This document shows, piece by piece, positions 2,481-33,410 of a DNA stretch of 33,410 nt (the stretch's first letter is position 1; each line of letters opens with the position of its first letter). A program made the position numbers and the translations under genes. The notes below the pieces were generated by a model, which saw only the letters and a list, made by a program, of their open reading frames with translations, was not told the DNA's origin and made no database searches. This stretch comes from Methanophagales archaeon (GTDB lineage Archaea; Halobacteriota; Syntropharchaeia; Alkanophagales; Methanospirareceae): contig JAGGRR010000023.1 of NCBI GenBank assembly GCA_021159465.1, positions 1-33,410 of the forward strand, in the 5' to 3' direction.

Positions 2481-3812
2481 TTAGAACCACTGCTCCAGCG
2501 TCTCCTTGATAAGCGCTAGAGCTCTGCTCACGACTTCCGCATCCACATCTTTCCGCTCCGCTCTTGCAATTGCCATCGCCACTCTTCGCACATGCAGCGG
2601 AAACCTCGCATCCCTCCGCAAGAATGACTTTCCGTATTTTTCCATGATCGAAGCCACTTCGTCAACAACGCTGGAGATTGCATCTTCCGCAATCTTAGGT
2701 CTGTGCGCTCTCGCTGAGCGAAGCCACGCACCAAAAACCTTCCTTGTTCTCACATCTCCGTGAAGGAGTTTCTCCATGACGTAATCTCTGAGAGGTTTTC
2801 CTTGCACCTCCTCACTCTTCACGATGAGTGAGAAACGAGATAAGAGCGGAGGATCAAAGGGTAAGTCTCCTTCGCTGCCTTTGAAGACGCCGTATGTGGG
2901 ATTCGCCATAGCGATCAGCACGAAACGAGACCCGATTATCTTATGTATGTTCGCTGCGTGGACAATGCACCTTCCCGTCGAAATGAGCTCGTATGTGAGC
3001 TTGAAGTCTTGCTTCGGCGCCTTGTCAAACTCATCTATGACAATAATTTTACCATTTGCTCGAGGTAGCACGCCAAGCTCGCCGGATTGATAGTTTATCA
3101 CTAATCCCGCTCTCGTGACGAGAGGCCCTGCGATCTCAACATCCCTGAGAGATGAAAGCAAATCGACTGCGAGCGTCTTCGCAGTTCCAGGCTCACCGAC
3201 TACAAGCGTATGAACTGGTTCTTCAGGCGTTGAAAGCAGAGAGGCTGCGAGACACTTCTTCATAAGGTCGTTTCCGTGAATCTCTGAGAAGAAGAGAGAT
3301 GCAAACTCCTCGAAGGACTCTGGCTTTTCTCCTCCCTCTTCTAACTCTTCTAGCTCCTCCTCTTCTTCTTCCACAGCTGCTTCCTCACTTTCTTCTTCAG
3401 CTCCGATTGCAATTAAAGAGGAGAGGCGTGTTGCGGCCTCTCGCAGCGAGCTCTTGCACCACTCCAGAGACCTCTGACCAACATCCTCAGTCTTGCAGAT
3501 GACTTTGTAGCCATCCTCAGCTTCTTCTATTCGTCTATATAGTGAGCTGAAAAAGTGTTCGACTACTCTTTTCGTGACCGGGCCTTTCTCTGTCCTTATG
3601 AAGACTGAAGCATCGTCATATTCGACACTCTTGAAATACTTTCGTGCAAGTGCTAATGCAGCAGCGTTCAACACTCGTCCTGTGGCCGCCTTAGAGAGCG
3701 GGAGGTCGTAGCTGTGGTAGAGAATGAGCTGCTCAAGCGTTCTTATCCCTGCCCTTTTCAGAGGTTCCACATCTCTTTTTTGCAGAACATCTTCAATTTT
3801 TGTTTGCTTCAC
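2481..3812 (-). CDS. MCM-like AAA+ helicase
   Basis: Probable replicative helicase ATPase. The C-terminal two thirds is an MCM-type AAA+ module: Walker A GEPGTAKT (206-213), Walker B IIVIDEFDK (256-264), sensor 1 AMANP (N304), arginine finger LLSRF (R326), and an HVRR sensor-2-type motif followed by a helix (about 408-420), all in the MCM arrangement. The N-terminal part (1-165) is not the usual MCM OB-fold with zinc-binding loop. It has a short helix-hairpin-helix-like segment (about 15-50) and an acidic Glu-rich linker (138-165). At 443 aa it is shorter than cellular MCMs (about 650-700). A GTG start follows GGGGGTGAT. It lies between the 357-aa and 526-aa genes, likely a replication cluster. 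Confidence 0.85.
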   Translation of the reverse strand: MKQTKIEDVLQKRDVEPLKRAGIRTLEQLILYHSYDLPLSKAATGRVLNAAALALARKYFKSVEYDDASVFIRTEKGPVTKRVVEHFFSSLYRRIEEAEDGYKVICKTEDVGQRSLEWCKSSLREAATRLSSLIAIGAEEESEEAAVEEEEEELEELEEGGEKPESFEEFASLFFSEIHGNDLMKKCLAASLLSTPEEPVHTLVVGEPGTAKTLAVDLLSSLRDVEIAGPLVTRAGLVINYQSGELGVLPRANGKIIVIDEFDKAPKQDFKLTYELISTGRCIVHAANIHKIIGSRFVLIAMANPTYGVFKGSEGDLPFDPPLLSRFSLIVKSEEVQGKPLRDYVMEKLLHGDVRTRKVFGAWLRSARAHRPKIAEDAISSVVDEVASIMEKYGKSFLRRDARFPLHVRRVAMAIARAERKDVDAEVVSRALALIKETLEQWF

Positions 3813-7090: not shown

Positions 7091-7945
7091 TCAGAGTTTC
7101 TCCGATAGAATGTATACGGCAAGCACATTCTTCATCCTTCTGATAATCTCTTTGTTGTGCTCTCTGATCTCGAGGGTTTTTGCAGCCCACTCGCTGAACA
7201 TCTCGTTGATGATGCCATACAGTTCAAAAAGCGCCTCAGCCTCTCCTAATCCGAAGATGTAGGTCGCATCCGCTTTTGAGAGCTCGATTGAGTAGGGCGC
7301 TAGGGGATAGAGTTTTATTTTGTTGAATGTCATGGGCTCTTCACCAAGCCACACTCTGAAACTTCCTTCACGCACAATCTCAAGCTCATCCAAGAACTTG
7401 AAATCCTTTGCTAAAGTCGTTAGCTCAAGAAAAGCTTCTCTGATAGGCTCACGCAGATGCGGCGCAATTACATCGGCGTATTTTATGAGCCTTCTGATGA
7501 AAACTCTTCTTGAATCTGGTGGATGAATGTCTATGCCTTCGGGTGCGATGTGAATGTATACATTGTCCTCGCTAATGGAAATAGGAATTGTGCAATCATC
7601 ATGAAGGCGTAAAGATATTAGTTGAGTGAATATGTCGTCAAGGTCGTTGAAAAGATCGAGGTTCGCAATCGTATCTAAGTCGCTTGAAAGTAGCTTTCCC
7701 TCTCCACGCTCAACTTTTGTCTCTGATATTGCCATCAATAAGTCTGTTAAGATGAACCACCATCCATGATACAGGCGAGTCTTTCTAAGCTCCTCAACCT
7801 TTTTCTTGAGGTGTTCTCTGAGCGCCTCAATCTCTGCAAGGGCGTCCATCACCAGCGCTTTGAGATGTTGTATTCTGTCTGCGCACGCCTTCAACTCTTT
7901 CACGAGCTCCTCTCTTTCTGTCTTACTCATCTCAGGTTTTACCAT
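7091..7945 (-). CDS. P-x2-R-x2-IRE family paralog A, 284 aa
   Basis: Most distant clear member of the seven-protein family. It begins with a predicted coiled coil (about 1-60), has a beta-rich centre, then the family core IKYADVIAPHLREPIREAF and the GSFRVW segment, and ends with a helix and the family C-terminus (RRMKNVLAVYILSEKL). ATG 7945 follows GGTGAG, and 14 bases overlap the upstream gene. It is flanked on both sides by the two members of paralog pair 1, suggesting duplication of a block. No enzymatic motif is seen. Confidence 0.7.
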   Translation of the reverse strand: MVKPEMSKTEREELVKELKACADRIQHLKALVMDALAEIEALREHLKKKVEELRKTRLYHGWWFILTDLLMAISETKVERGEGKLLSSDLDTIANLDLFNDLDDIFTQLISLRLHDDCTIPISISEDNVYIHIAPEGIDIHPPDSRRVFIRRLIKYADVIAPHLREPIREAFLELTTLAKDFKFLDELEIVREGSFRVWLGEEPMTFNKIKLYPLAPYSIELSKADATYIFGLGEAEALFELYGIINEMFSEWAAKTLEIREHNKEIIRRMKNVLAVYILSEKL

Positions 7946-8468
7946 CACTCTCACCTTCCCCCTCATCCTCGAGCTCTTCTTCATCCAACATCTCCAAATC
8001 AATGAGAATTCTGCGGTGCTCTTCGTCTGAGACTGCTCTTACGTCTAAAGTGTAGCATATTTCTTCGAATCTCCTGCTCTCCTCCCAGATTATCTTCTGA
8101 GGGTCGAACTCTTTTATCAAACCATTCTTGTAAAGGACGTACTGATAGAGAATCCACATGACGCTCTCGAATCTTCCACCACCGCCGATGTTGTCTACGA
8201 ACTCAATCTCAAAGAAATCAACGATGCGCTGAAGAACCTCTCGCAGATGATTCTCGTCGATAGCAATAAGGAGGAGGTCTTCCTGCGTAATCTCGGGCAC
8301 ATCCTCAAAAGACCGTATCGCTTCTGCAAACCACTCCAAATCGTCACCGTAATCTGTGTGGATGTCGTATACATCTCCTTTTATTTTCAAGACGAGCTCA
8401 GAGCATGTGGGTTGGAAAGGTGGTTTTTCTCTATTTATTTTCTCTAATCTGTACATTTTTACTCTCAT
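7932..8468 (-). CDS. Paralog pair 1, member b, 178 aa
   Basis: Homologous to the protein at 6568-7062: PFQPTCSELVLKIKG near residue 17, then DENHLREVLQRIVDFF, EFVDNIGGGG, and an acidic Glu/Asp-rich tail. The start at 8468 follows GGTGGTGA. No domain of known function. The two copies bracket paralog A, and the shared 43-bp identical DNA segment could support recombination that deletes or duplicates the gene between them. Confidence 0.7.
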   Translation of the reverse strand: MRVKMYRLEKINREKPPFQPTCSELVLKIKGDVYDIHTDYGDDLEWFAEAIRSFEDVPEITQEDLLLIAIDENHLREVLQRIVDFFEIEFVDNIGGGGRFESVMWILYQYVLYKNGLIKEFDPQKIIWEESRRFEEICYTLDVRAVSDEEHRRILIDLEMLDEEELEDEGEGESDGKT

Positions 8469-11805: not shown

Positions 11806-11880
11806 GGGCTCGTAGCTCAGCACGGACGGAGCGCCGGCCTTCTAAGCCGGGTGTCGCGGGTTCAAATCCCGTCGAGCCCG
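11806..11880 (+). tRNA. tRNA-Arg, anticodon TCT
   Basis: A complete cloverleaf: acceptor GGGCTCG/CGAGCCC, D stem GCTC/GAGC with the GG pair in the loop, anticodon stem CCGGC/GCCGG with loop CTTCTAA (anticodon TCT), five-base variable loop, T stem GCGGG/CCCGT with loop TTCAAAT, and discriminator G. CCA is not encoded and there is no intron. It reads AGA/AGG, codons that appear frequently in these genes. It is the only non-transposon gene on the plus strand. Its 3' 19 bases overlap, antisense, the last codons of the radical SAM gene. Confidence 0.95.
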
Positions 11881-15403: not shown

Positions 15404-16216
15404 TTAGATAATCCTTGGGAGAAAATAGGGAGCTGCTATCTCCTTCATCTTACGAAGAATCTTGTTGTTGTTCTCAATGACCTTCGAGAGTTTGCTGTAG
15501 TACTCCTTTAGCATTTCGTATAGCACACCATAATGTTCTATAAGTGTGAGAATATAGCACGTTGGATATTTGAAATCTATAGGATAAAGATGTCCGCATA
15601 TTTCTTCACCCCTCTTTAGGATGAGAGCAAACAACGGGGAGGAAGAGTAAGAAGTCAGGAGAATCTCGCTGCATCTGTAAGCAGTCGTTTGCTCCAGATT
15701 CCATATTCTGAAGTCTCCTTTGCGTGAGATTTCCACGTGAGGAGGTGGGGTGCGAAGCTCTCTCGCTAACTCTGCGAGCTCGGAGAAATCCTCACGGATG
15801 CTTCGTCGCACATACGGACGAACCTCATCCGCATATTTAATAATGTATTTAGCGAGCCTTTTCTCTTGCGGCGCATATCTCCTTCCGAGATAGACAATTT
15901 CTGTGTAATCTCCTACATATATGCTGCTACCGATTACAAGCGCCTTTTTCACACCTTGCTCCTCTATCGGGACAGTTATCTTCTTGTAGGAGAAGGGCTT
16001 CAAAGCTGAGAAAATCTTACCAACTTCAAAAAGAAGGTTATCGTCAAAGAGATTTCTTGCTTCTTCGAGCTTCGACCATAAATCTTCGCTCGCTCTAAAA
16101 GATTCGAGCACACCGCACTCATCGCATATTTCTTCCACAACCTCTCTTGGAATGAAGATTCCGACGAGATGACTTTTGAATTTTTCAAACACACTCTTAA
16201 TTTTCTGCTCTTTCAA
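15404..16216 (-). CDS. P-x2-R-x2-IRE family paralog B, 270 aa
   Basis: Family order is clear: N-terminal helical region, LKPFSYKK strand segment followed by LVIGSSIYVGD, the core IIKYADEVRPYVRRSIREDF, the GDFRIW strand, a variable beta region, and a C-terminal helix ending MKEIAAPYFLPRII. The start is uncertain: the TTG at 16216 overlaps GGGGG, so translation may begin a few codons later. It is the last of four tandem members (B to E) downstream of the VWA gene. Function unknown; the conserved core and variable ends suggest a common fold with diversified binding. Confidence 0.7.
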   Translation of the reverse strand: MKEQKIKSVFEKFKSHLVGIFIPREVVEEICDECGVLESFRASEDLWSKLEEARNLFDDNLLFEVGKIFSALKPFSYKKITVPIEEQGVKKALVIGSSIYVGDYTEIVYLGRRYAPQEKRLAKYIIKYADEVRPYVRRSIREDFSELAELARELRTPPPHVEISRKGDFRIWNLEQTTAYRCSEILLTSYSSSPLFALILKRGEEICGHLYPIDFKYPTCYILTLIEHYGVLYEMLKEYYSKLSKVIENNNKILRKMKEIAAPYFLPRII

Positions 16217-16233: not shown

Positions 16234-17028
16234 TTAGAGGGTTGTTGCGAGCAGGTACGGTGCAACTAAGCTCCTTATTTTTCGCAACACCTCTTCGTTC
16301 TCCGCCACGATTGTTTTGATTTTAGTGTATGCCTCCTTGTATGCTCCTTCCACATCATCGAGAATCTTGATTAGATTTAATATTCCGTTTTCTGTGATGC
16401 TTGTTTCTGTAACGTTAATCCAAAAATCTCTTTTAGATGAAAGTGGGTGGAAGATGAGGTCTCTCGGTCTCTCGTAAGAAACACTCAAAGCATTACATTT
16501 AATCCATTTGAAGCTCGCCCCCTCCCGATCATGGTAGCCATAGTAGAGAATCTCAAAGTCTCCGTTGCAGTAATGGAAACACTCATATTCTGCTCTAATT
16601 TTATCTAGATATTCTCCAAGCAGGATTACATCATCTAGTAACTCCCTGCCAAATTCGAAGATATCTTCCTCCATTCTTTGAAGGAAGTTGTCGAGAGATA
16701 TACAATAGCAACCCCCTTTCTCACTCTTACTTACCACCTCTATTTCCTTCATCCAATGTTTTCTGTATAAGTGTTTCTCATCCACCATTATTGGCGTACA
16801 TAATCTCCTGATCTCATCTCTAAGGCTGTGTAAATAATCTTTGAGGGAGGAGTTGCGCAACACATTTTTTATCTTGTGGGCGTAAGCTCTGATTGCTCTA
16901 CAACGAGCGTCTTTAGCAACAAATTCTTCAGCAAGCGCTCTGATCTCTTTGAGTAAAGGTAGGCGCTTGGCGGGCCGCTCACACTCTACCAACTTATCCA
17001 TAATTTCCATAATCTCCTCGGCTATCAT
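16234..17028 (-). CDS. P-x2-R-x2-IRE family paralog C, divergent, 264 aa
   Basis: Recognisable as a family member mainly by size, position between B and D, and C-terminus (RKIRSLVAPYLLATTL after a helix). The usual P-x2-R-x2-IRE core is degenerate (about GRELLDDVILLGEYLDKI), and it is unusually Cys-rich in the centre (GGCYC, ECFHYC). It may be a decaying or neofunctionalised copy. ATG 17028 lies just after the GAGGCGGGAGTG stretch; 11 bases separate it from the end of D. Confidence 0.6.
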   Translation of the reverse strand: MIAEEIMEIMDKLVECERPAKRLPLLKEIRALAEEFVAKDARCRAIRAYAHKIKNVLRNSSLKDYLHSLRDEIRRLCTPIMVDEKHLYRKHWMKEIEVVSKSEKGGCYCISLDNFLQRMEEDIFEFGRELLDDVILLGEYLDKIRAEYECFHYCNGDFEILYYGYHDREGASFKWIKCNALSVSYERPRDLIFHPLSSKRDFWINVTETSITENGILNLIKILDDVEGAYKEAYTKIKTIVAENEEVLRKIRSLVAPYLLATTL

Positions 17029-17038
17029 CACTCCCGCC

Positions 17039-17833
17039 TCATAGTTCGTTAACAAGCACATATTCGCCGACCACTTTTCTCATTCTCTCAAGAATCTCAT
17101 CGTTCTTCCTCTGAATTTCAGACCACTCTTCGTGGAATCTCTGATAAGCTTCGTAAATAGGCTTGTATAGTGCGAACAAGTCTTCCTTCCGAGTGATACT
17201 TAAGTGATAAACGTCTTTATCGCAGATTACTTTAATTTCTTCGAGAGGGGCGTCCATTGAGATTGAGATTTCCCTGCATGGAATCTTTACGAAACACATT
17301 ATTTCAGAGCGGTAAGCTTTTCTGTAAAGAAAGTATCCATCACACCTTTGCGTGATCGTCAAACCCAACCTCAGTTTCTTTGCTAGTTCAACGAGCTCTT
17401 CGAAAGCTTCTTGTATGGGCTTGCGAAGATGAGGAACTATTTTCTCGTGGTATTTGGTAACGACTTCGATGAAGTGGTGTTCGCTGAGCACCTCTCCTCT
17501 TCTCCGCTTCTTGCAAAGACTGGAGTAGAATCCAGCCCTTATATCGTTACTTATAACCAAAGCATCGTAGAAGTCAAGCACACCGCCGTCTTCTACACGG
17601 ATCACCGCTTTCCTATGAGCGAAAGGGTGCAATTTTCGGAATAAACGATACGCTTCCATTATATAGTGTGATGGTGTTTTCAGCGATACGATGGACTTCT
17701 GATAGAAATCGAGAACCTTCTTGTAATAAGGATTCTCTTCTTCCATTTTCGCCTTTCTGGCGTTGAGCGAGTCGATTGTCTCCATAACTAACTCATACCC
17801 CTCGACATATTCCTCGAAATCGCCCTCGCACAT
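17039..17833 (-). CDS. P-x2-R-x2-IRE family paralog D, 264 aa
   Basis: Contains LHPFAHRKAVIRV, the core KYHEKIVPHLRKPIQEAF with Gln in place of Arg in the IRE triplet, ELAKKL, a variable beta region, and the C-terminal ERMRKVVGEYVLVNEL. ATG 17833 follows AGGGGAA, a weaker site than usual. Part of the tandem array B-E. Predicted helix at both ends with a beta-rich centre, compatible with an elongated oligomeric protein. Confidence 0.7.
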   Translation of the reverse strand: MCEGDFEEYVEGYELVMETIDSLNARKAKMEEENPYYKKVLDFYQKSIVSLKTPSHYIMEAYRLFRKLHPFAHRKAVIRVEDGGVLDFYDALVISNDIRAGFYSSLCKKRRRGEVLSEHHFIEVVTKYHEKIVPHLRKPIQEAFEELVELAKKLRLGLTITQRCDGYFLYRKAYRSEIMCFVKIPCREISISMDAPLEEIKVICDKDVYHLSITRKEDLFALYKPIYEAYQRFHEEWSEIQRKNDEILERMRKVVGEYVLVNEL

Positions 17834-17857: not shown

Positions 17858-18625
17858 TCAGACTCCGTTCGCAAGAACGTACGGTGCGACTATTTCTTTT
17901 ATCTGCTTTAGTCTTTCCTCGTTCCTCTTGAGCTCTTCTCTCAATCTCTGATGCGCCTCAGTCAGTATGTCGTAAATCACCTCATATACCTCGAAAAACT
18001 TCTCTAATTCGCTGATGTCGCCGGAGGCAAAAAATTCGTCTCTGAAAGAATAATGCACCCTGTAAAATCTGCTCGTGGCGCTTATGCAGATTTTGTCAGC
18101 GTGGTAAGCTTCCACTTCTCCACTTTCTATGTCCCAAATCCTGAATGAGCCTCTGCGAGAGATTTCCATCTCAAGACATCTCTGAATCTCTTCGACCAAT
18201 CCTACAATCTCAAGAAAATCTTCTCTGATGGTTTTACGCAGCAGCGGAACAATCTTGTCTTTGTACTTGAAGATAGTATAGAACATATTTTGGATGCTGA
18301 CCTCCTTCCTTCCACTATATTCTTCGGGATTCTGATAAGTCCATGTCGTGTATATTGAGTGACCGACGACAAGAATCTCAGAGCCGTATTTTTTCCGCTC
18401 AAGTTCCACGATGACTCTCTTCCTAGCAAACGGCTGCAAATATTTGAGCGCTTCCATGGCCTTTACCAGATGATCTAACTCTATTCTGAGTAGGAGATCT
18501 CTAACTTCTTTTTGGAGGTGCATGCACTTTGAGTAATATTCAACGTCTGCAGGGCTGATGATGTATACTTCGTTCTTCCGCCGAATCTTTTGAATTTTAT
18601 CCTCCAACCCTTTCAGCTCTCTCAT
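17858..18625 (-). CDS. P-x2-R-x2-IRE family paralog E, 255 aa
   Basis: Contains LQPFARKRVIVEL, VVGHSIYTTW, the core KYKDKIVPLLRKTIREDF, RRGSFRIW and C-terminal IKEIVAPYVLANGV. It begins 20 bases after the VWA protein gene, so both are probably on one message. The ATG at 18625 is only one base from GGGGG, an unusually short spacing that recurs in paralog F; initiation may be inefficient or use another codon. Confidence 0.7.
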   Translation of the reverse strand: MRELKGLEDKIQKIRRKNEVYIISPADVEYYSKCMHLQKEVRDLLLRIELDHLVKAMEALKYLQPFARKRVIVELERKKYGSEILVVGHSIYTTWTYQNPEEYSGRKEVSIQNMFYTIFKYKDKIVPLLRKTIREDFLEIVGLVEEIQRCLEMEISRRGSFRIWDIESGEVEAYHADKICISATSRFYRVHYSFRDEFFASGDISELEKFFEVYEVIYDILTEAHQRLREELKRNEERLKQIKEIVAPYVLANGV

Positions 18626-18644
18626 ACCCCCAAAAACAAAAAAA

Positions 18645-20015
18645 TCAGAGAGAAAGAGTGATATGAGTCCAGCCAGGCGCATCCACTGCTTTGCACGTAG
18701 TTACGATTACGCCTTTACCTCTTGTTGCTATTGCGGTGAACAGCGGTTTCGCCTCTTCTTCATCAAAGAGATAACCGTCAGTCATCACGACGACGACACT
18801 GCCACTCCGCATTTCTTGCAGCGTCTTCTTTAATGCTGGCGTTATTCTCGTGCCGCCACCACCACGCATCTTCTTCGCAATCACTTTAGCATCTGAAGGA
18901 CGTTTTACTTCAAGTCTCTCATAGACATCAGCGTCAAAGCATCTGACAAGAACTTTTGCACACTTCGCAGCACCGTAAATCTCACCAAGGAACTGTTCCA
19001 ACTCTTGCTTGCTTATAGAGCCTGAAGTATCTATGAGTGTGTAAACTTCTCTCAAGCCAAATCTCTGGAATCCTGGGAAGTTATCACTTTTTCTTGAGAG
19101 CCTCTTCCATGTTGAGATGTGTTTCTGAAGACCTATAGAAACAGCAGCTCTCAGCAAAGCTCTCCAATCGACTTTTGGCCTCAATATCGAGTCCAGCTCG
19201 GCAAGCAGAGCGCCCACAGGCTCTCTACCAGCCATCTTCGCTGCGAGCTGGGCGTTCTCCAAAACTTCCTTCCATCTCTCTTCTAATTCGCTCTCTGAGC
19301 CTTCGTAAAGTGAGCCGTCACCTTCTCTGATGACTTCTCCTTGCTGCTCGCCAACGAAATCACCAGTCAAATCGTGCTCTTCGCCTATACTCCTGCTCCC
19401 GCCTTTACCTGCACTCTCGGTATCTTCAGCTCCAACATCTCCGCCAGCTCTCGCACCACCTTCTTCACCACCTTCAGCACTCTCACCACCTTCAGTGGTG
19501 CTTACGCCGTCAGTCTCACCAGAGCCGCGAGGGTAAGGTCTATCTCCACCATTTCCAGACCCACCAATCGCATATTTTAGCAGCTCTCTGTATAAGCGTT
19601 CAACACTCCATCGCTTGATCTCATCTTCCGATTTCTCAATCAGTGAGCTTACATGATGTGCTCTCAAGGGATGTAAATCATCTCGGTGGTTGAAATCGTT
19701 ATCAATAAGAGCTTCGTTTACGATGATGTCTGCTGCTATATTGAAAAGCTCTTTACTTTCGACCCTATCTCCACGAAATGCGTGTCTGAATGCCGCATGC
19801 AGTACTTCATGCGCAACAATAAACGCTCTCGACTCTAACGAGAACTTCTTGAATCGCTCTTCGTTGATGTAGAGATTGCCGCGCTTATCAACACCGGCGA
19901 TTTCTGTTAGCCTACTTGTCTTCAGAACTCTGAGTTTGTAGAGGATTGAGCCGACGAAAGGGCTCTTTATCATTATGAGCGTTGCTGCTTCCTCAAACTC
20001 TCTCATTTCGCCCAT
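18645..20015 (-). CDS. VWA protein with N-terminal metallopeptidase-like domain (DUF2201 type)
   Basis: Residues 55-105 match the putative metallopeptidase domain that precedes VWA-like domains: HEVLH (69-73) with a further His at 78 and NIAADIIVNEAL (92-103). Residues 150-240 are a Gly/Glu-rich disordered linker. Residues 320-456 form a VWA domain with a complete MIDAS: DTSGS (329-333), T389 in GGGGT and D413 in MTDGY. These proteins usually work with MoxR AAA+ ATPases in assembling or remodelling complexes, and a MoxR gene lies 3 kb upstream on the same strand. ATG 20015 follows GGGGGTGA. Downstream are paralogs E-B, possible clients. Confidence 0.88.
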   Translation of the reverse strand: MGEMREFEEAATLIMIKSPFVGSILYKLRVLKTSRLTEIAGVDKRGNLYINEERFKKFSLESRAFIVAHEVLHAAFRHAFRGDRVESKELFNIAADIIVNEALIDNDFNHRDDLHPLRAHHVSSLIEKSEDEIKRWSVERLYRELLKYAIGGSGNGGDRPYPRGSGETDGVSTTEGGESAEGGEEGGARAGGDVGAEDTESAGKGGSRSIGEEHDLTGDFVGEQQGEVIREGDGSLYEGSESELEERWKEVLENAQLAAKMAGREPVGALLAELDSILRPKVDWRALLRAAVSIGLQKHISTWKRLSRKSDNFPGFQRFGLREVYTLIDTSGSISKQELEQFLGEIYGAAKCAKVLVRCFDADVYERLEVKRPSDAKVIAKKMRGGGGTRITPALKKTLQEMRSGSVVVVMTDGYLFDEEEAKPLFTAIATRGKGVIVTTCKAVDAPGWTHITLSL

Positions 20016-23172: not shown

Positions 23173-24303
23173 TTAAGCGACGACGCTCGCAGCCTCAGCG
23201 ATGCTCTCGAAAGCGTCAGGCGCTGCGTCCTTAACAGCCTTCAGGACTTTTCGCCTCGATTTCTTCGGAAGTGCTCTTGCGAAGACTATGAACAGCTCTC
23301 CTCTATCTCTAAGTATTTTCACAGCAACATGAATGATTTTCTTAATGTCGCTAACGTTTGCGAGCTGAATCGTAAGCATGTATTTTTGATCAAGTGAGAG
23401 GCTATCGTATTTGTCAGGATTCTTTATGATTTCGTTGACGTCCACACGAGCTCTGAGGAAAGTTCGGAACTTCAAGCCGAGCTCTCTTCCCACTAATGTC
23501 GGCGCATCTTTCTCGAGGTCAAGCGAGCGTGCTGCTAAAATCGTCCACGTTCGTGGTGTTGCAAATTGTTCAAGCGTTTCTGCATCGTCAGGCTTCTGCA
23601 CAAGATAGTTTTCTCCTTCGTAAGCTGCTAAAAACGCATAGACCCGCTTGTCCCAGGCATCTCCGTATTTCCTGTCCATGTAGTCAACCCAGTCTTTAAG
23701 ACTGGGTGGATCGACTCTTATGACTCTGAAGCGGTTGAGCAAAGGTGCTGGCAGTGGACGAGCAATCGCACTGTCTTCTGGCGTATTTCCTGCTGCGATG
23801 ATGAAAGTGCCGCCGTTTATTGAGATCTGACCGACCTTTCTGTCTAATGCTATTTTGTAAGCCGTTGATAAGACGTCATCTCGCTGGACGTTCGTTATTT
23901 GACGGGTGTGTGGCAACCTGACGACCAGACAACCAGGTACCACACACCTTTCGTCTAAAAACAAGATTCCGCTTGCCGCCTGTAAGCAGCGAGCCCAAAG
24001 CATCGGATAGTAGCGAACGTAATTGCCGTTAACACGAGGTATTCCTATTAGATCCGAGGGTTCGACCTCAGTCAGTCTGAAATCCACGAACAAGAAGTAT
24101 TTATCTGGTGCCTTTAGAATTTCCTGCGCCGCGTCATCACTGTAGTCAATAAATTCTTTGCCGTGCTCTCTTGCCAGCTCTTCAGCACATGTTCGCACCG
24201 TCTCGCTCTTCCCAATTCCTGACGAACCCAGTAGGAGACACGGTGTTTTAGGGTCTTTCTTATATAGACGCTTTAAATAATCAAGCAATTCGCTCGCCTT
24301 CAT
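23173..24303 (-). CDS. MoxR-type AAA+ ATPase with a probable spliced intron
   Basis: AAA+ ATPase of the MoxR (AAA_5) class: Walker A GSSGIGKS (26-33), Walker B ILFLDE (113-118), sensor 1 AAGN (170-173), and arginine finger PLLNRF (R191). Unusually, 17 codons (about 119-135, RCVVPGC onward) follow the Walker B glutamate and separate it from ITNVQRDD, which should come next. The DNA around this insert forms an exact bulge-helix-bulge, and excising 51 nt restores LDEITNVQRDD (see 23899-23949). MoxR ATPases act with VWA proteins such as the one at 18645-20015. It begins 23 bases after paralog F. ATG 24303 follows GGGGGTGA. Confidence 0.88.
   Translation of the reverse strand: MKASELLDYLKRLYKKDPKTPCLLLGSSGIGKSETVRTCAEELAREHGKEFIDYSDDAAQEILKAPDKYFLFVDFRLTEVEPSDLIGIPRVNGNYVRYYPMLWARCLQAASGILFLDERCVVPGCLVVRLPHTRQITNVQRDDVLSTAYKIALDRKVGQISINGGTFIIAAGNTPEDSAIARPLPAPLLNRFRVIRVDPPSLKDWVDYMDRKYGDAWDKRVYAFLAAYEGENYLVQKPDDAETLEQFATPRTWTILAARSLDLEKDAPTLVGRELGLKFRTFLRARVDVNEIIKNPDKYDSLSLDQKYMLTIQLANVSDIKKIIHVAVKILRDRGELFIVFARALPKKSRRKVLKAVKDAAPDAFESIAEAASVVA
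23899..23949 (-). other. Candidate 51-nt bulge-helix-bulge mRNA intron in MoxR gene
   Basis: On the minus strand the 5' side reads TTA, GACG, AAA, GGTGTGTGG and the 3' side reads CCACACACC, CGTC, AAA, TAA. Pairing gives a 9-bp inner helix (with a further CCTG/CAGG inside), a 3-nt AAA bulge, a 4-bp GACG/CGTC helix, a second 3-nt AAA bulge on the opposite strand, and an outer TTA/TAA helix. This is the archaeal tRNA-endonuclease substrate in the correct orientation. Cutting after the second base of each bulge removes 23899-23949 and joins GAA to ATA, restoring the conserved Walker B region in frame. Confidence 0.82.
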
Positions 24304-24326: not shown

Positions 24327-25184
24327 TCAGAGCTCCGAGAGCACAAAGGGTGCTGCAATCTCACGCATCTTTCTCACAATCTCTTCGCATCTTTCTTTCT
24401 TAGCTTGCAGTTTCTGATAGGCTTCATCGCACATATCTGCAAGCACATCATATAACTCGAGAAAGCGGAGGGAATTTACAAGAACCGTTCCTATGTCTTC
24501 CACACTTCTTATATTTCCGTCGTTGAATAGGATGATGCGAAAAGTTCCTGGCGGATAAGTTAAATCTACACGAATCGAGATTTTATCGAACGCCTCATAG
24601 CTTATCAGTGAGCCCTTATATTTCACATGTGGGTTAAGGATGAGCACTCTGAATTCACCCTCACGAGTGACGATATTCTCATCAAAATATAGTTCTGCGG
24701 TGAGAGATTTTGCAAGTGTGTGGAATTCGGCTAGTTCTTCTCTAATAGTCCTCCGAACATAAGGAACGACTTCATCTCCATATCTCACAAATGTCCGAAA
24801 AACCTCTTCCAGCGTAGGATACCTGCGTTGATCGCTCCAGAACGTCTCGTATATTAGATTTCCTACAATGAGGTAACCACCACCGAGAGGAATCACTCTT
24901 CTTTTGTAGCTGAATGGTTTGAAATAGCCAAACAATTTTATAGCTTCATATTTGTAGTATGAAATCTTCTTCACTAATTTCCACACTCTGTTCATAAGTT
25001 CCTTACACCTTTTGTAAATTTCTGTATCCTTTATCTCTCTGCTTATTCTCCCATTTAGGGTGTTGAGTGCTTTTTCCAAGCAGCTTTCGTAAGCTTCCTC
25101 AGCCCTTATATAATCAATTCTTTTCTTGTCAACCTCCTGTGCAATTCTTTCCAGTTCTTCCTTTATCTTCTCTATCTCTTTCAT
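24327..25184 (-). CDS. P-x2-R-x2-IRE family paralog F, 285 aa
   Basis: Contains a long N-terminal coiled coil (about 1-65), FKPFSYKRRVIPL, LIVGNLIYETF, the core RYGDEVVPYVRRTIREEL, REGEFRVL, a beta region, and the C-terminus RKMREIAAPFVLSEL. It is closest to paralog G, including DNA similarity at the 3' end. It directly precedes the MoxR gene, so family members flank both partners of the MoxR/VWA pair. The ATG is one base from GGGGGA, as in paralog E. Confidence 0.72.
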   Translation of the reverse strand: MKEIEKIKEELERIAQEVDKKRIDYIRAEEAYESCLEKALNTLNGRISREIKDTEIYKRCKELMNRVWKLVKKISYYKYEAIKLFGYFKPFSYKRRVIPLGGGYLIVGNLIYETFWSDQRRYPTLEEVFRTFVRYGDEVVPYVRRTIREELAEFHTLAKSLTAELYFDENIVTREGEFRVLILNPHVKYKGSLISYEAFDKISIRVDLTYPPGTFRIILFNDGNIRSVEDIGTVLVNSLRFLELYDVLADMCDEAYQKLQAKKERCEEIVRKMREIAAPFVLSEL

Positions 25185-25201: not shown

Positions 25202-26041
25202 TCAGAGTCCTGAGAGCACAAAGGGTGCTACTACCTTCTTCATCTCCTTTAGAATTTCATCGCACCGCTCCTTCTTTGCTTGTAGCTTCTCATAGGCTTC
25301 TTCATACATTTCCGCTAATGTATCGTATAGCTCGCTGAGCCGAAGAGGAGCGTAGGGTGTATCGTCCATATCTACCACATCTCTGCTATTAGTGTTAGTG
25401 TTAATCAGGTAGACTGTGCACGATCGAAGAATCTGTGTGAGATCTACATAAATAGTGACTTTGTTGTATGTTTGCCAAAACACCCGCGCCCACCCTTCCG
25501 ACCGCTCAGAATATTCGAAAGAGAGAGTCCTAAACTTTCCCTCACGAGCAGCAAGCTCTCCCTTCATTTCAGCCATGAGTTCTCTTCCCAATCTGCAGAA
25601 CTCTGCAAGCTCTTCTCTAATATTTTTTCGAACATTTGGAATAATCACATCAGCATGTTCTAAGAGTATCTGAAAAATTTCCCTCGCTGTTGACTCTCTA
25701 TATATCTTCGTGTTGGGGGTTGTGGTTATCGTCCTACCTATCGTAAGATATTCTAAAGGTTGGAGTCGAATTACCTTTCTTTTATAGCGGAATGGTTTGA
25801 AATAATCGACAAGTCTTATAGCTTCTTCATCATATCGTGGAAAATTGGAGATTATATATTCGATTTTTCTCCGCAACTCATTACACTTTTTGTAATCCTC
25901 TCCTTCTACGATTTTGCTAGCTAACTTTTCACTCACACGCCCAAACCTTTCGAGAGCTTCACTGTATATTCTTTCTGCTTTCTGTAATTCCTCCACCGAT
26001 TCCTCTAAGTCCGTTATATCTTTTTTAAGGTCTTCCGGCAT
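25202..26041 (-). CDS. P-x2-R-x2-IRE family paralog G, 279 aa
   Basis: Closest relative of F: coiled coil with YSEALERFGRVSEKL, FKPFRYKRKVIRL, YLTIGRTITTT, core EHADVIIPNVRKNIREEL, REGKFRTL, LSELYDTLAEMYEEAYEKL and C-terminus KEMKKVVAPFVLSGL. ATG 26041 lies six bases after GGGGG, the expected spacing, and an in-frame ATG at 26047 touches the site. It follows the secreted transglutaminase-like gene. Function unknown. Confidence 0.72.
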   Translation of the reverse strand: MPEDLKKDITDLEESVEELQKAERIYSEALERFGRVSEKLASKIVEGEDYKKCNELRRKIEYIISNFPRYDEEAIRLVDYFKPFRYKRKVIRLQPLEYLTIGRTITTTPNTKIYRESTAREIFQILLEHADVIIPNVRKNIREELAEFCRLGRELMAEMKGELAAREGKFRTLSFEYSERSEGWARVFWQTYNKVTIYVDLTQILRSCTVYLINTNTNSRDVVDMDDTPYAPLRLSELYDTLAEMYEEAYEKLQAKKERCDEILKEMKKVVAPFVLSGL

Positions 26042-26067
26042 CTTCATCCCCCAAGGGAAAAAATAAA

Positions 26068-26916
26068 TCATATTCTTTTTCTGAGGAAGAGTGCAACGAT
26101 TATAGCCGCCACGAGTGGTGCTGTTGGAGTGGGTGTTGTCGGCTCGGGCGTTATTGGCGTTGGAGTCGGTGTTGTTGGAGTCAGCACAGCACCAGGATTC
26201 ATTCTCATGAAATCTTTGACCGTGTAGAAATCCACGAGGAAATACTCTAACTCAGGAATTACCGCTCCTGAGACATATCCGAAATGCTCTGAATACGTTC
26301 CATCAATCGGGATGAGCACCCAATCTTCAAAGCCATCACCAAGTTCGCAGTGGAGTTTCTGCGCAATCTCTTCAGGAGTGGTCTCAAACACATCAACGAC
26401 ATCGCTCAGCCCAAGCTCAAAAATTGCGTCTGCGGTTGATTCGGGTGCATAAAGAAGGCAAGTTGCGTGATCAACTTCGCCGTCTCCATCGCAGTCGATG
26501 TCGCCTACAAAGGCGATATAACCGTAATAGTTCAGAAGTGAAGCGAAGAGAATTGCGAAGTCCTCGCAGTCTCCTGCCTGCTCTCTCAGCGTTTCTTCAG
26601 GCGTCTGAAAGTAGTCAGGGCCTGGGCGTCCATCACCAACGATTGTTCCTGGCGCGGGCTCAGCGTTTTCATCATCATATCTGTATATGATTGTGGATGT
26701 GAGTGTGTCGTATGCGATTTTCATCTCGTCGAGGTCTAACAACCCGTCGTTGTTTATGTCAAAGGTTGCGAAGACGCTAACGACATAAGGTGTGTAGAAC
26801 TCTGAGGGTGTGCAATTGCTCAGAATTTCAGGCACTTGGGCTTGCGTGGGCGTGATTGAGAGAGGGATTAGTGAGAGCGATAGCACAAGCAGAGCCTTAC
26901 TCACGCTTACTCCCAT
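26068..26916 (-). CDS. Secreted, membrane-anchored transglutaminase-like protein with EF-hand-like loops
   Basis: Residues 1-28 form a signal peptide (KALLVLSLSLIPLS core). An EF-hand/dockerin-like calcium loop follows (DINNDGLLDLDEM), then a transglutaminase/cysteine-protease-like core with GDCEDFA (candidate nucleophile Cys), DHATCLLY (candidate His) and VLIPIDGTY (candidate Asp). A second Asp-rich loop, DIDCDGDGEVD, lies between. The C-terminus is a Thr/Pro stalk (TPTPTPITPEP), a transmembrane helix (APLVAAIIVALFL) and RKRI, so the domain is displayed outside the cell or virion. ATG 26916 follows GGGGGTGTG. It is the only clear membrane protein in the window and may act in virion or surface modification. 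Confidence 0.82.
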   Translation of the reverse strand: MGVSVSKALLVLSLSLIPLSITPTQAQVPEILSNCTPSEFYTPYVVSVFATFDINNDGLLDLDEMKIAYDTLTSTIIYRYDDENAEPAPGTIVGDGRPGPDYFQTPEETLREQAGDCEDFAILFASLLNYYGYIAFVGDIDCDGDGEVDHATCLLYAPESTADAIFELGLSDVVDVFETTPEEIAQKLHCELGDGFEDWVLIPIDGTYSEHFGYVSGAVIPELEYFLVDFYTVKDFMRMNPGAVLTPTTPTPTPITPEPTTPTPTAPLVAAIIVALFLRKRI

Positions 26917-27050
26917 CTCGCACACCCCCAGCACACTCTTCGTTAATCCTTATGAGAACATGGTAGAAAATTTCTGAGCTCTATCTCGTGAGAAAGAGGT
27001 AGCAGAAAGCCTTCAAAGGAAAAATAAGAAGAATTGATTGATCTTGCGGC

Positions 27051-28954: not shown

Positions 28955-30157
28955 ATGGTCACGCTATCTGTGAAGCTAAAGCTTGAACCTACGGAAGAGC
29001 AGAGGCAGAAGATTATGGATTTGGCAAAGAAGTATAAAGACGCCTTCAACGAGGTCAGCGAATACGCTTTCAGCAATCGTGTTTTCGACCACATCGGATT
29101 GCACAAAGCCCTATACCGTAAGCTCAAGGAGAAATATGCCTTTCAGGCTCAGATCGCCATCTCGGTCATAAGAGAGGTCGCTCAGCACTACGCTTCAGTC
29201 TTTGATCAGTTAGCTGAGAAGTTTCATGTCTCTAAGAGAGATCGCAAGAGGTTAGTTGAGTTGTTCTATAAAGAGGTTAAAAGACCGATCAAAAGAAGGA
29301 AGCTGATTGTCAAGCTCGTTAAGGGAAGAAGCTACGACTTGAAGATAGACCCAAGAGTTTGCTCCATCTCAGTTATTGGTGAAAGATTGAAGAGGATTCC
29401 TTACTACGGTTGGAGCAAGCACTACAAATATATAGAGCTTGGCTACGGAGACGCAACCCTATACTATGAGAGAAGCAACAAGCTCTGGTATCTCATCGTA
29501 TCGGTAGAAGTTCCTGAGAGCGAGCTTAAGCCTAAGAAGGTCGTTGGCGTTGATATAAATGAGCCTTCAGATAGTTTCGTGGCGTTATGTGATAGCTTAG
29601 GAAGAAGTAAGCTTATTGAGTTCTCTCAACAAGTTTTGAGGTTGAAGTCACATTATCAAAAGTTACGCTCACAACTCCAGTCTAAAGGCACTCGCTCCGC
29701 TAAGAGGCGTCTATCATCTCTTAGCGGAGTCGAGAAACGGCTGGTTAGGAACTTTCTGCATGTCGTTGCCAAAGAAATTGTTGAGAACTCGCCATGTGTC
29801 TTTGGTTTAGAGGACTTGAACGGTATCAGAGAGCGTAGAGAGAGACATGCTAAGTTCAGCGGCGAGAAAAGAAGGTTGTTCAGTCAGTGGTGTTTCAGAG
29901 AGCTTCAAACGCTGATCGAATACAAAGCCAAACTCTGCGGAAGCAAAGTCATTTACGTTGACTCGCAGTATACATCAATCAGCTGTCCGGTGTGTGGCTA
30001 CACTGCTAAGGAAAACAGAGACAAGAAGAGGTTCTGTTGCAGGAACTGTGGATTCGAAGAGCATGCAGATATTGTCGGTGCTAAAAACATTATGTTGAGG
30101 GTTTTGAAAGACCTTCAGAACGGGGCGCTTGTCAGCCGTCCCGATGCTCCCCCTTAA
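28955..30157 (+). CDS. tnpB: TnpB, RNA-guided nuclease (IS605/IS1341 type)
   Basis: 400 aa with all canonical motifs: RuvC-I GVDINEPSDSF (D200), RuvC-II FGLEDLNGI (E286), a zinc ribbon CPVCG (344, 347) with CCRNCG (362, 365), and RuvC-III HADIVGAKN (D371). TnpB uses an omega RNA from the element's right end to cut DNA matching the empty donor site and so favours retention of the element. It is the only protein gene on the plus strand. Active-site residues are intact, so it is likely functional. Confidence 0.92.
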   Translation: MVTLSVKLKLEPTEEQRQKIMDLAKKYKDAFNEVSEYAFSNRVFDHIGLHKALYRKLKEKYAFQAQIAISVIREVAQHYASVFDQLAEKFHVSKRDRKRLVELFYKEVKRPIKRRKLIVKLVKGRSYDLKIDPRVCSISVIGERLKRIPYYGWSKHYKYIELGYGDATLYYERSNKLWYLIVSVEVPESELKPKKVVGVDINEPSDSFVALCDSLGRSKLIEFSQQVLRLKSHYQKLRSQLQSKGTRSAKRRLSSLSGVEKRLVRNFLHVVAKEIVENSPCVFGLEDLNGIRERRERHAKFSGEKRRLFSQWCFRELQTLIEYKAKLCGSKVIYVDSQYTSISCPVCGYTAKENRDKKRFCCRNCGFEEHADIVGAKNIMLRVLKDLQNGALVSRPDAPP

Positions 30158-30774: not shown

Positions 30775-30981
30775 TTAGTGGAGTAAGACATTCACAGGCG
30801 CGGGCTTTCTCCAGAGTTTCGGCGCTCTTAGATAGTATCCTCGCATCCCTTTAAAGAGGATAAAGCTTATACTCTCGTTATAAATCATTACCGTCTCTCC
30901 GCTGTAGTTTCTCTCCTTGTAAATCTCCGCCCCCTCAACGCACAGTCTTAATCCGTGCCGGAATTCTATATAGACCTTCAT
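30775..30981 (-). CDS. Small beta-rich protein, 68 aa
   Basis: ATG 30981 follows GGGGGTGATGTGG. Strands alternate: MKVYIEFRHGLRLCVEGAEI, then GETVMIYNESISFILF and a basic end. The segment RLCVEGAEIY resembles EVCVEGARIVYD in the protein at 32198-33013, perhaps a shared small beta unit. The frame extends to 31107 only into the GC-rich non-coding stretch. Confidence 0.65.
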   Translation of the reverse strand: MKVYIEFRHGLRLCVEGAEIYKERNYSGETVMIYNESISFILFKGMRGYYLRAPKLWRKPAPVNVLLH

Positions 30982-30989
30982 CCACATCA

Positions 30990-31497
30990 CCCCCAAGTCG
31001 GAAAGGCTCCCTTCCCCTTCATCGGTGGCGGGAGATCCGACCCCCCATCGGGGGCACGGGTTACCACCCCGCCTAGGTGGCGCATCCCCTCGAGGAGGAG
31101 CTCTCACCCCGTCAGACCTCCCCTCGGGTTAGGGGGGAGAGAGCTGGTGGAGTGGAGACCAGTCCCTCCTCCCGCGCCTTCCCATCCCCCGTTAGTCAAC
31201 CCACCCTCCATGCTCTTCGCACTTCATCGGGTGCCCGCCCTGGGGGAGGCGGGACTCTCCTCTGCGGAGAGTAAGAAAGGCAGAGGAGAGCGGAGCACCT
31301 CCAGGGAAGTGGCCCGGGGAGAAACGAGCAGACCTTCTGCAGGACTGGGGCAACATCCTGCTTCATCGGCGGCGGGGGTGACCGCCCTACCCTATAGGGT
31401 AGGGAGAACTGCTCGCTCCTCCCCTGTCGCTGTTGCACTTGAGAGAGCTCCAGACCCCTTTCGCAGCGGGTGGAGGGGTCGTAAAAAATGGGGGCGC
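30990..31497. ncRNA. Candidate large structured non-coding RNA
   Basis: About 500 bases, visibly far richer in G and C than all the surrounding sequence, with no credible gene. It holds at least eight inverted repeats: 30997-31002/31036-31041, 31042-31054, 31099-31105/31139-31145, 31234-31239/31248-31253, 31254-31272, 31339-31344/31356-31361, 31385-31404 (CCCTACCC, TATA, GGGTAGGG) and 31453-31459/31474-31480. The motif TTCATCGG occurs three times (31018, 31223, 31362) and once in the control region (10652). GC-rich islands in AT-rich archaeal genomes are usually structured RNAs. On the plus strand TCTATATAGA (30965-30974) would start a transcript near 30997, exactly at the first stem; strand is not certain. 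I could not match it to rRNA, RNase P, SRP RNA or tRNA. Confidence 0.6.
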
Positions 31498-31509
31498 TTA
31501 GGCGCCCCC
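31483..31509 (-). terminator. Hairpin plus T6 terminator
   Basis: On the minus strand GGGGGCGC, a four-base loop containing the stop codon, GCGCCCCC and then A and T6. It overlaps the stop of the coiled-coil gene and would end the right-hand operon before the GC-rich non-coding stretch, implying that stretch has its own promoter. Confidence 0.7.
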
Positions 31510-32085
31510 TCCAATCACATTTTTGTGCGCCTCTATCTCAGCCTCCAGTTCCTCAATCGTCATCTCTTTCCAATCTCCCGTTCTCTTCAAATCGTCAATC
31601 ACTTTCGCTCTGTAGTAAAGGCTCAGACGCCTGCCTTTCTTTGCAAGGTCGAGTTTTCTCTGCAATTCTTTGTCTTCTCTGTAAGCCTTCGCTACAGCAA
31701 TTTCTATAGCCTTAAGTCTCTGGAGCATCTCTCTCTCGTCCGCAACATCATCGAGCGTCTTTGCAACATCCACCCCAACTTTCTGCTCTATCTTCCTTAT
31801 AATTTTGTCAAGTGAAACACTTTTTCCAAGCGCTATGTTAGTGGCAAGGTCTTCGGCAGTGTTTTTCACCACCCTCTTCTTTGAGAAGTATTTCTGGTTC
31901 GCCTCTCTAAACCACTCTTTTCGTAGTTGCTCTGACTTTACATCAAGCCCCTCTCGCTTTGTTACAAGCCCTCTGAACGCTTTACTCTCCTTCTCAAGCT
32001 CTTCCACACGCTTCTTCAACTCTTCCACTAACTTCTCCATCTCTTCCACACTCTTCCCTCTCACACCCATATTTCCTCCCGTCAT
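31498..32085 (-). CDS. Coiled-coil protein, 195 aa
   Basis: ATG 32085 follows GGGGGTAGAGG; an in-frame ATG at 32070 follows GGGAGG and is equally good. Residues about 8-45 are a strong coiled coil (SVEEMEKLVEELKKRVEEL), the middle is basic and helical (FREANQKYFSKKRVVKN), and the C-terminal half is helical with an acidic end (MTIEELEAEIEAHKNV). The frame extends to 32214 through GC-rich leader sequence, which is unlikely to be translated. Unknown family; may be a scaffold or DNA-binding protein. Confidence 0.7.
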   Translation of the reverse strand: MTGGNMGVRGKSVEEMEKLVEELKKRVEELEKESKAFRGLVTKREGLDVKSEQLRKEWFREANQKYFSKKRVVKNTAEDLATNIALGKSVSLDKIIRKIEQKVGVDVAKTLDDVADEREMLQRLKAIEIAVAKAYREDKELQRKLDLAKKGRRLSLYYRAKVIDDLKRTGDWKEMTIEELEAEIEAHKNVIGGGA

Positions 32086-32089
32086 TTTT

Positions 32090-32197
32090 CCTCTACCCCC
32101 TCCCCTCCCCCGCTTTTGCGGGGGGCCTGGAGCTCTCTGCTTTAGGTGGAGACCCCTCTTGCACGGGAACGGGGGGATAGTTTTGATATGGGAAAAA
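32090..32197 (-). promoter_or_regulatory. GC-rich structured leader
   Basis: Between two minus-strand genes lie about 110 GC-rich bases, with a CCCCCGC/GCGGGGG stem around TTTT (32107-32124) and the motif GGTGGAGACC. Close variants of GTCTCCAC also occur at about 31154 in the GC-rich non-coding stretch and at 33033 just ahead of the upstream gene, so the three GC-rich patches may be related. It could be a 5' leader that controls the coiled-coil gene. Confidence 0.4.
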
Positions 32198-33013: not shown

Positions 33014-33040
33014 AAGCCCCCCGCCCCGACGGGTCTCCAC

Positions 33041-33410
33041 CTTTTTTGAGTGAGCGTTTTAAGCGTTATGAGTGTTTTAACGCATTAACGCATTATCGCT
33101 TTTAAATCACTATTTCCTACACATACCCCCACACCTAAACTTCAGAGGCTTATCCATAAGCGGTTATGCACCGCCTACTTCACTTTATACAGCTCGCACC
33201 CGCCCCTTCTTTTTAATTCAATTTTGAGAGCGGGTGCGAACCGTTTTTGAGAGCGTCCTTGTTCAAAACGCTCTCTTTTTTGAGAGCGTTTTCATCACAA
33301 AAACGCTCTCAATATAAAATATATTATAACTTCAGACAAACAGATATGTTTGTTTTGGCTCAAGAAAAGGGAGCGTTATTCTTGGAAAGAGAGGCTGGAT
33401 AGGTTTATTC
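33041..33410. promoter_or_regulatory. Right-hand control region, candidate origin
   Basis: No gene is visible in these 370 bases. In the minus direction ATTTAAAAG (33099-33107) is a TATA-like box giving a leader of about 60 bases to the zinc-finger gene. The leader contains tandem AACGCATT (33079-33094) and two TAAAACRCTCA direct repeats. Beyond lie the GAGAGCG iterons, a 10-bp inverted repeat TCGCACCCGC/GCGGGTGCGA (33194-33203, 33230-33239), an AT-rich tract (33311-33330) and ACAAACA/TGTTTGT (33336-33353). Iterons beside an AT-rich tract are typical of plasmid or viral origins. The window may end inside it. Confidence 0.55.
33226..33310. repeat. GAGAGCG iterons, five copies in 85 bp
   Basis: GAGAGCG lies at 33226, 33249 and 33282 on plus, and its complement CGCTCTC at 33269 and 33304. 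The central pair forms a perfect 11-bp inverted repeat (AAAACGCTCTC and GAGAGCGTTTT) around T6 (33265-33292). The shorter core GAGCGTTTT recurs at 33052-33060 close to the gene start, and GAGCGTTATT occurs at 33371. Likely binding sites for an initiator, partition or regulatory protein. Confidence 0.75.

Follow-up and report, generated by a model that had tools for sequence, protein, structure and literature searches.

A GC-rich noncoding island on a mobile-element-like archaeal contig as a candidate structured RNA

Results and discussion

The island and its surroundings

The window, by which we mean the whole stretch of DNA analysed, is a contig of 33,410 bases from an archaeal genome of 1.89 Mb in 268 contigs. 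It encodes a short MCM-like helicase, a MoxR-like ATPase, a VWA/metallopeptidase protein and a GP88-domain protein, together with IS607- and IS605-type insertion genes, a tRNA-Arg and many orphans. This gene content gives the contig a plasmid- or virus-like appearance, and it looks like a mobile element of one of these kinds. No virion protein was recognised among the contig proteins tested. Two orphan ORFs on the minus strand enclose a GC-rich spacer, and the features of this region are as follows.

31000-31489, unstranded: GC-rich noncoding island, GC 0.649 (contig 0.45)
30775-30982, minus: orphan ORF of 68 aa, with a Shine-Dalgarno-like GGGGGTGAT at the left edge of the island
31498-32082, minus: orphan ORF, coiled-coil-like, ending at the island
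31483-31509, minus: intrinsic-terminator-like hairpin followed by T6, at the stop codon of ORF 31498-32082
30959-30972, plus: BRE/TATA-like site, CGGAAT-TCTATATA
31240-31426, unstranded (drawn best on minus): folded core, from local fold z
31424-31409 with 31331-31316, minus: 16-bp helix closing a multiloop, the element spanning 31316-31424
31254-31291, minus: 12-bp hairpin with a 14-nt loop, adjoining the 16-bp helix domain
31385-31404, unstranded: perfect 20-nt palindrome, CCCTACCCTATAGGGTAGGG
31361-31369, minus: CCGATGAAG copy 1, between two hairpins
31222-31230, minus: CCGATGAAG copy 2, after the hairpin CCCGCC..GGCGGG
31017-31025, minus: CCGATGAAG copy 3
31442-31479, unstranded: segment near the right border of the island, repeated in inverted, partly identical form (37 nt) at 32101-32138
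32085-32180: second, smaller GC-rich structured spacer before ORF 31498-32082, fold z -4.2 on plus and -2.7 on minus

Base composition and coding potential

An earlier note on this DNA had described a sharp compositional island that holds no gene, and both descriptions agree with our measurements. In 100-nt windows the GC content runs from 0.60 to 0.71 between about 30981 and 31500, against the contig mean of 0.45. As the host background we used 20 stretches (349 kb) of the same genome, in which 490-nt windows have a mean GC of 46.0% (sd 3.6) and a maximum of 60.2%, the latter falling in the 16S rRNA gene. At 64.9%, the island lies about 5.3 sd above the host mean and above every 490-nt window of this sample. 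Its GC surpasses even that of host stable RNAs, where tRNAs have 62% in surroundings of 46% and rRNAs reach up to 60%.

Codon scores computed against the codon usage of the element are negative in all six frames of the island, compared with +0.22 to +0.49 in the neighbouring genes. GC is flat across the three codon positions, and neither of the two ORFs that cross the island has a Pfam match; no protein match to the island was found. In being noncoding, the island agrees with a generic large structured ncRNA. A protein product would have to come from the 286-aa plus-strand ORF 30955-31815, which runs antisense through ORF 31498-32082, or from the 80-aa minus-strand ORF 31196-31438. It could draw on the plus frame that stays free of stops for 160 codons inside the island, a modest oddity at such GC. 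Given the codon scores, the even codon positions and the Pfam result, we consider coding very improbable.

Local folding

At least eight inverted repeats had been counted in the island by eye. As a count this did not stand, since most of the stems are what chance provides at 65% GC: two perfect stems of at least 8 bp were observed vs 1.8 in shuffles. It does stand for about three of them. Perfect stems of at least 10 bp number two vs 0.16 in shuffles (p=0.01), and the longest minus-strand stem with G.U pairs allowed has 16 bp (p=0.03). Only the 16-bp helix with its three hairpins (31314-31424), the 12-bp hairpin and the 20-nt palindrome exceed chance. The multiloop closed by the 16-bp helix holds hairpins at about 31402-31387, 31386-31368 and 31361-31339, and the MFE and centroid structures agree for this domain on the minus strand. 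The helix departs from Watson-Crick pairing at two positions, which are G.U pairs on the minus strand and A.C mismatches on the plus strand.

The local fold z is about 0 across most of 31000-31239 and falls below -3 only in 31240-31419, so that the structural excess is limited to about 190 of 500 nt. In 120-nt windows it reaches -4.0 on minus and -3.6 on plus at 31240-31359, and -3.0 on minus and -2.2 on plus at 31300-31419. The whole island gives -3.2 (minus) and -2.4 (plus) over 508 nt, and -2.7 and -1.8 over 490 nt. Eighty random host windows of equal length have a mean fold z of 0.04 and a minimum of -2.6; the minus-strand value of the island is just beyond this background and the plus-strand value is within it. 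Windows in the sense strand of host rRNA range from -2.2 to -6.7 and are mostly stronger than the island, whose structural excess is moderate.

Repeated motifs

Three copies of TTCATCGG had been reported in the island. They are present, and the exact repeated unit is CTTCATCGG, found on one strand at 31017, 31222 and 31361 and nowhere else in the window. Any 9-mer occurs three times in 3% of 2000 shuffles of the island, and CTTCATCGG itself occurs 9 times on both strands of the 349 kb of host DNA. Read on the minus strand, the CCGATGAAG copies adjoin hairpins. We considered mimicry of rRNA and rejected it, as CCGATGAAG is absent from host 16S and 23S. A G-quadruplex motif at 31190 on the minus strand was also set aside (about 0.2 expected from composition), and the consensus pair of integron attC sites was not seen on inspection by eye.

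The inverted pair 31442-31479 and 32101-32138 has a local alignment score of 39.5 vs a shuffle maximum of 32.5. Both spacers that flank ORF 31498-32082 therefore share sequence.

Search for relatives

The region resembles none of the common RNA families, as had been suggested from inspection. Searching Rfam 15 at gathering and permissive thresholds (including GOLLD, ROOL, OLE, rRNA, RNase P, SRP, introns and riboswitches) left the island below the curated scores; the permissive search of the region gave sub-threshold matches only, and the tRNA-Arg at 11806 is the sole Rfam match within the window. Comparison of the island DNA with its own genome, relatives, phages and plasmids returned short chance matches only, and no homologue was found in about 400 genomes of the phylum, phages, plasmids and pattern-scanned viral contigs. 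Scans of viral contigs with exact patterns of two island motifs gave, among the matches listed, chance occurrences only.

A single-sequence covariance model of the 16-bp helix domain was searched against 392 genomes of the phylum. Besides its own copy it matched two sequences of one genus at 32-33 bits. The match in L068, which is GC-rich, lies antisense to a 704-aa ORF, and the other is nearly identical to it in sequence; both were judged chance matches. The model had no match in the pattern-matched viral contigs, nor on the Syntrophoarchaeum and Thermoplasmatota contigs reached via the MCM-like helicase, the one protein of the element with clear relatives. Both flanking proteins are orphans in the searched genomes, save one weak coiled-coil match, and no sister elements were found via these proteins and a paralogue family of the contig.

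Borders and strand

A hairpin terminator with T6 had been proposed for the right border and a plus-strand TATA-like element for the left, and both are in place. The terminator (31509-31483, minus) belongs to ORF 31498-32082 and is the only perfect hairpin-plus-T5 of the window; read on the plus strand, its hairpin is followed by T5 at 31520-31524. On the left, TCTATATA at 30965-30972 lies 25 nt ahead of the first plus-strand stem (30997). The BRE/TATA-like site to which it belongs would direct plus-strand initiation to about 30995, and no other position scored as high in a promoter scan whose weights were set after the site had been seen. It falls in Tyr-Ile codons of minus-strand ORF 30775-30982, so it may be a coincidence, and as a promoter signal for plus-strand transcription it is only suggestive. 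A motif derived from 28 host tRNA upstream regions was diffuse, AT-rich and unusable as a promoter matrix.

The strand cues for an island RNA are in conflict. Those for the plus strand are the BRE/TATA-like site, the T5 run after the terminator hairpin and the unpaired bases of the core, which are purine-rich on plus and pyrimidine-rich on minus. For the minus strand, the 16-bp helix is fully paired and the total fold z is slightly lower than on plus; moreover, the island lies between co-directional minus-strand ORFs, right after the hairpin-T6 terminator, and directly precedes the Shine-Dalgarno-like sequence of ORF 30775-30982. No TATA-like site was found on the minus strand inside the island or just to its right.

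Interpretation of the island

The island is noncoding, GC-rich like host stable RNAs and locally over-structured, and it carries a repeated motif. A structured ncRNA is the most economical reading of this combination, and we put the chances at about even that this noncoding stretch of a mobile-element-like contig gives rise to a structured RNA transcript. We infer its transcription, and likewise the strand, extent and function of the candidate RNA. The earlier suggestion of an independent structured RNA keeps its footing in the absence of coding, the GC content and the locally significant fold; it loses ground in that the excess is moderate and covers about 190 of 500 nt. A large independent structured RNA is thus possible. 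Roughly half of the island shows no folding advantage over shuffles, and the lack of a homologue and a fold excess below that of most host rRNA windows also count against such an RNA. At present the island is a single-sequence candidate with moderate statistics. Since it belongs to no Rfam family tested, it is placed only under the general kind of a structured ncRNA of a mobile element.

The best-formed part of such an RNA would be 31240-31426, where the 16-bp helix would close a four-way arrangement of three hairpins beside the 12-bp hairpin. The RNA may act as a scaffold, its hairpins holding three repeated, mostly unpaired CCGAUGAAG segments; if plus is the sense strand, the segments displayed would be CUUCAUCGG. 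A protein or a complementary RNA might recognise them. The RNA could be transcribed separately, or it could be the long leader that separates ORF 30775-30982 from the terminator of ORF 31498-32082.

Two other readings, a DNA-level element and a spacer, fit much of the same evidence as a structured RNA. The island may be a GC-rich spacer that is functionless or decaying, made of foreign GC-rich DNA or the remnant of a pseudogene, with hairpins that arise mostly from composition. Since the element is otherwise gene-dense, a recent insertion is conceivable, and the chance-level stems, the poor folding across most of 31000-31239, the open plus frame and the conservation found nowhere all agree with such an origin. 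The codon positions, however, show no trace of a former gene, the island matches neither phage nor plasmid DNA, and the folding of the core and the repeated 9-mer exceed chance; we regard this origin as rather unlikely, if still to be reckoned with. Alternatively, the island may function at the DNA level, as a cis site rich in hairpins and repeats that serves replication, recombination, packaging or protein binding. On this proposal, the CTTCATCGG copies would be putative binding sites, and the palindrome and the long inverted repeat would form cruciforms. Such a site would account for the perfect palindrome and the 16-nt inverted repeat, the shared orientation of the three 9-mers, the related inverted 37-nt copy across one gene and a folding excess of the core that is alike on both strands. 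Yet AT-rich sequence is usual for origins, and the contig has an iteron-like region of that composition elsewhere (33030-33330); furthermore, on one strand the two mismatched positions of the 16-bp helix become precisely G.U pairs, something that function as DNA would not require. We think a DNA site unlikely.

Comparison with known RNAs

Guide (omega) RNAs of TnpB in IS605 and IS607 elements derive from the 3' end of the TnpB gene and extend to the right end of the transposon. TnpB genes are present on the same contig (20888-22426 minus and 28955-30157 plus). From the end of the nearer ORF (30157) it is about 850 bases to the island, small minus-strand ORFs lie in between, and the island is not at a transposon end; it was rejected as a TnpB guide RNA. 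Box C/D guide RNAs are short and carry the boxes C (RUGAUGA) and D (CUGA). This identity was likewise rejected, as two positions of CCGATGAAG deviate from box C and the match to sR53 reached 14 bits vs a cut-off of 49.

Phages and prophages encode the large structured RNAs GOLLD and ROOL (PMC12286853). Like these RNAs, the island is long and noncoding, and the mobile-element-like contig around it has a tRNA gene as well. Unlike them, the island has no Rfam match and an archaeal host, is shorter, lies 19 kb from the tRNA, has no known conservation and shows only moderate evidence of folding. Bacteria and their phages are the known sources of such large structured RNAs of mobile elements, whose function is obscure; an archaeal example, if confirmed, would widen the class and offer a compact test object. 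We hold it improbable that the island encodes a mobile-element RNA of about 500 nt from the archaeal class Syntropharchaeia that is unrelated to known families, presents three unpaired CCGAUGAAG docking sites and is the counterpart of the large ornate phage RNAs.

Where a genome is richer in AT, long GC-rich spacers have been published as indicators of ncRNA genes (Stav et al., PMC6429828, citing Klein et al. 2002 for GC-rich intergenic ncRNA candidates found by base composition). As described there, those candidates share with the island a long gene-free GC-rich spacer in a less GC-rich genome. The island differs from them in having no relatives that could lend comparative support to its structure, and is a candidate from sequence only.

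Other features of the contig

The MCM-like helicase (2481-3812 minus, 443 aa) has relatives in Ca. Syntrophoarchaeum and on many Thermoplasmatota MAG contigs at about 32-42% identity, and is a possible marker for a group of archaeal replicons. At the contig end, 33030-33330, GAGAGCGTTTT-like sequences are repeated and inverted beside an AT-rich stretch, an arrangement that looks like an iteron-type origin. ARAGORN predicted a tRNA-Ala(ggc) at 26116-26195 on the plus strand, which has no Rfam support, overlaps ORF 26068-26934 and is probably false.

Seven paralogues on the minus strand occupy a large share of the element (7091-8002, 15404-16216, 16234-17061, 17039-17833, 17858-18682, 24327-25184 and 25202-26071). 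They have diverged, with about 25-29% identity to the first copy in the five aligned, and share a core motif resembling PYVRRTIREELAE; searches of 392 genomes of the phylum detected the family nowhere else. The VWA/metallopeptidase protein and the MoxR-like ATPase (18645-20015 and 23173-24303, minus) form a pair with distant relatives in many phages.
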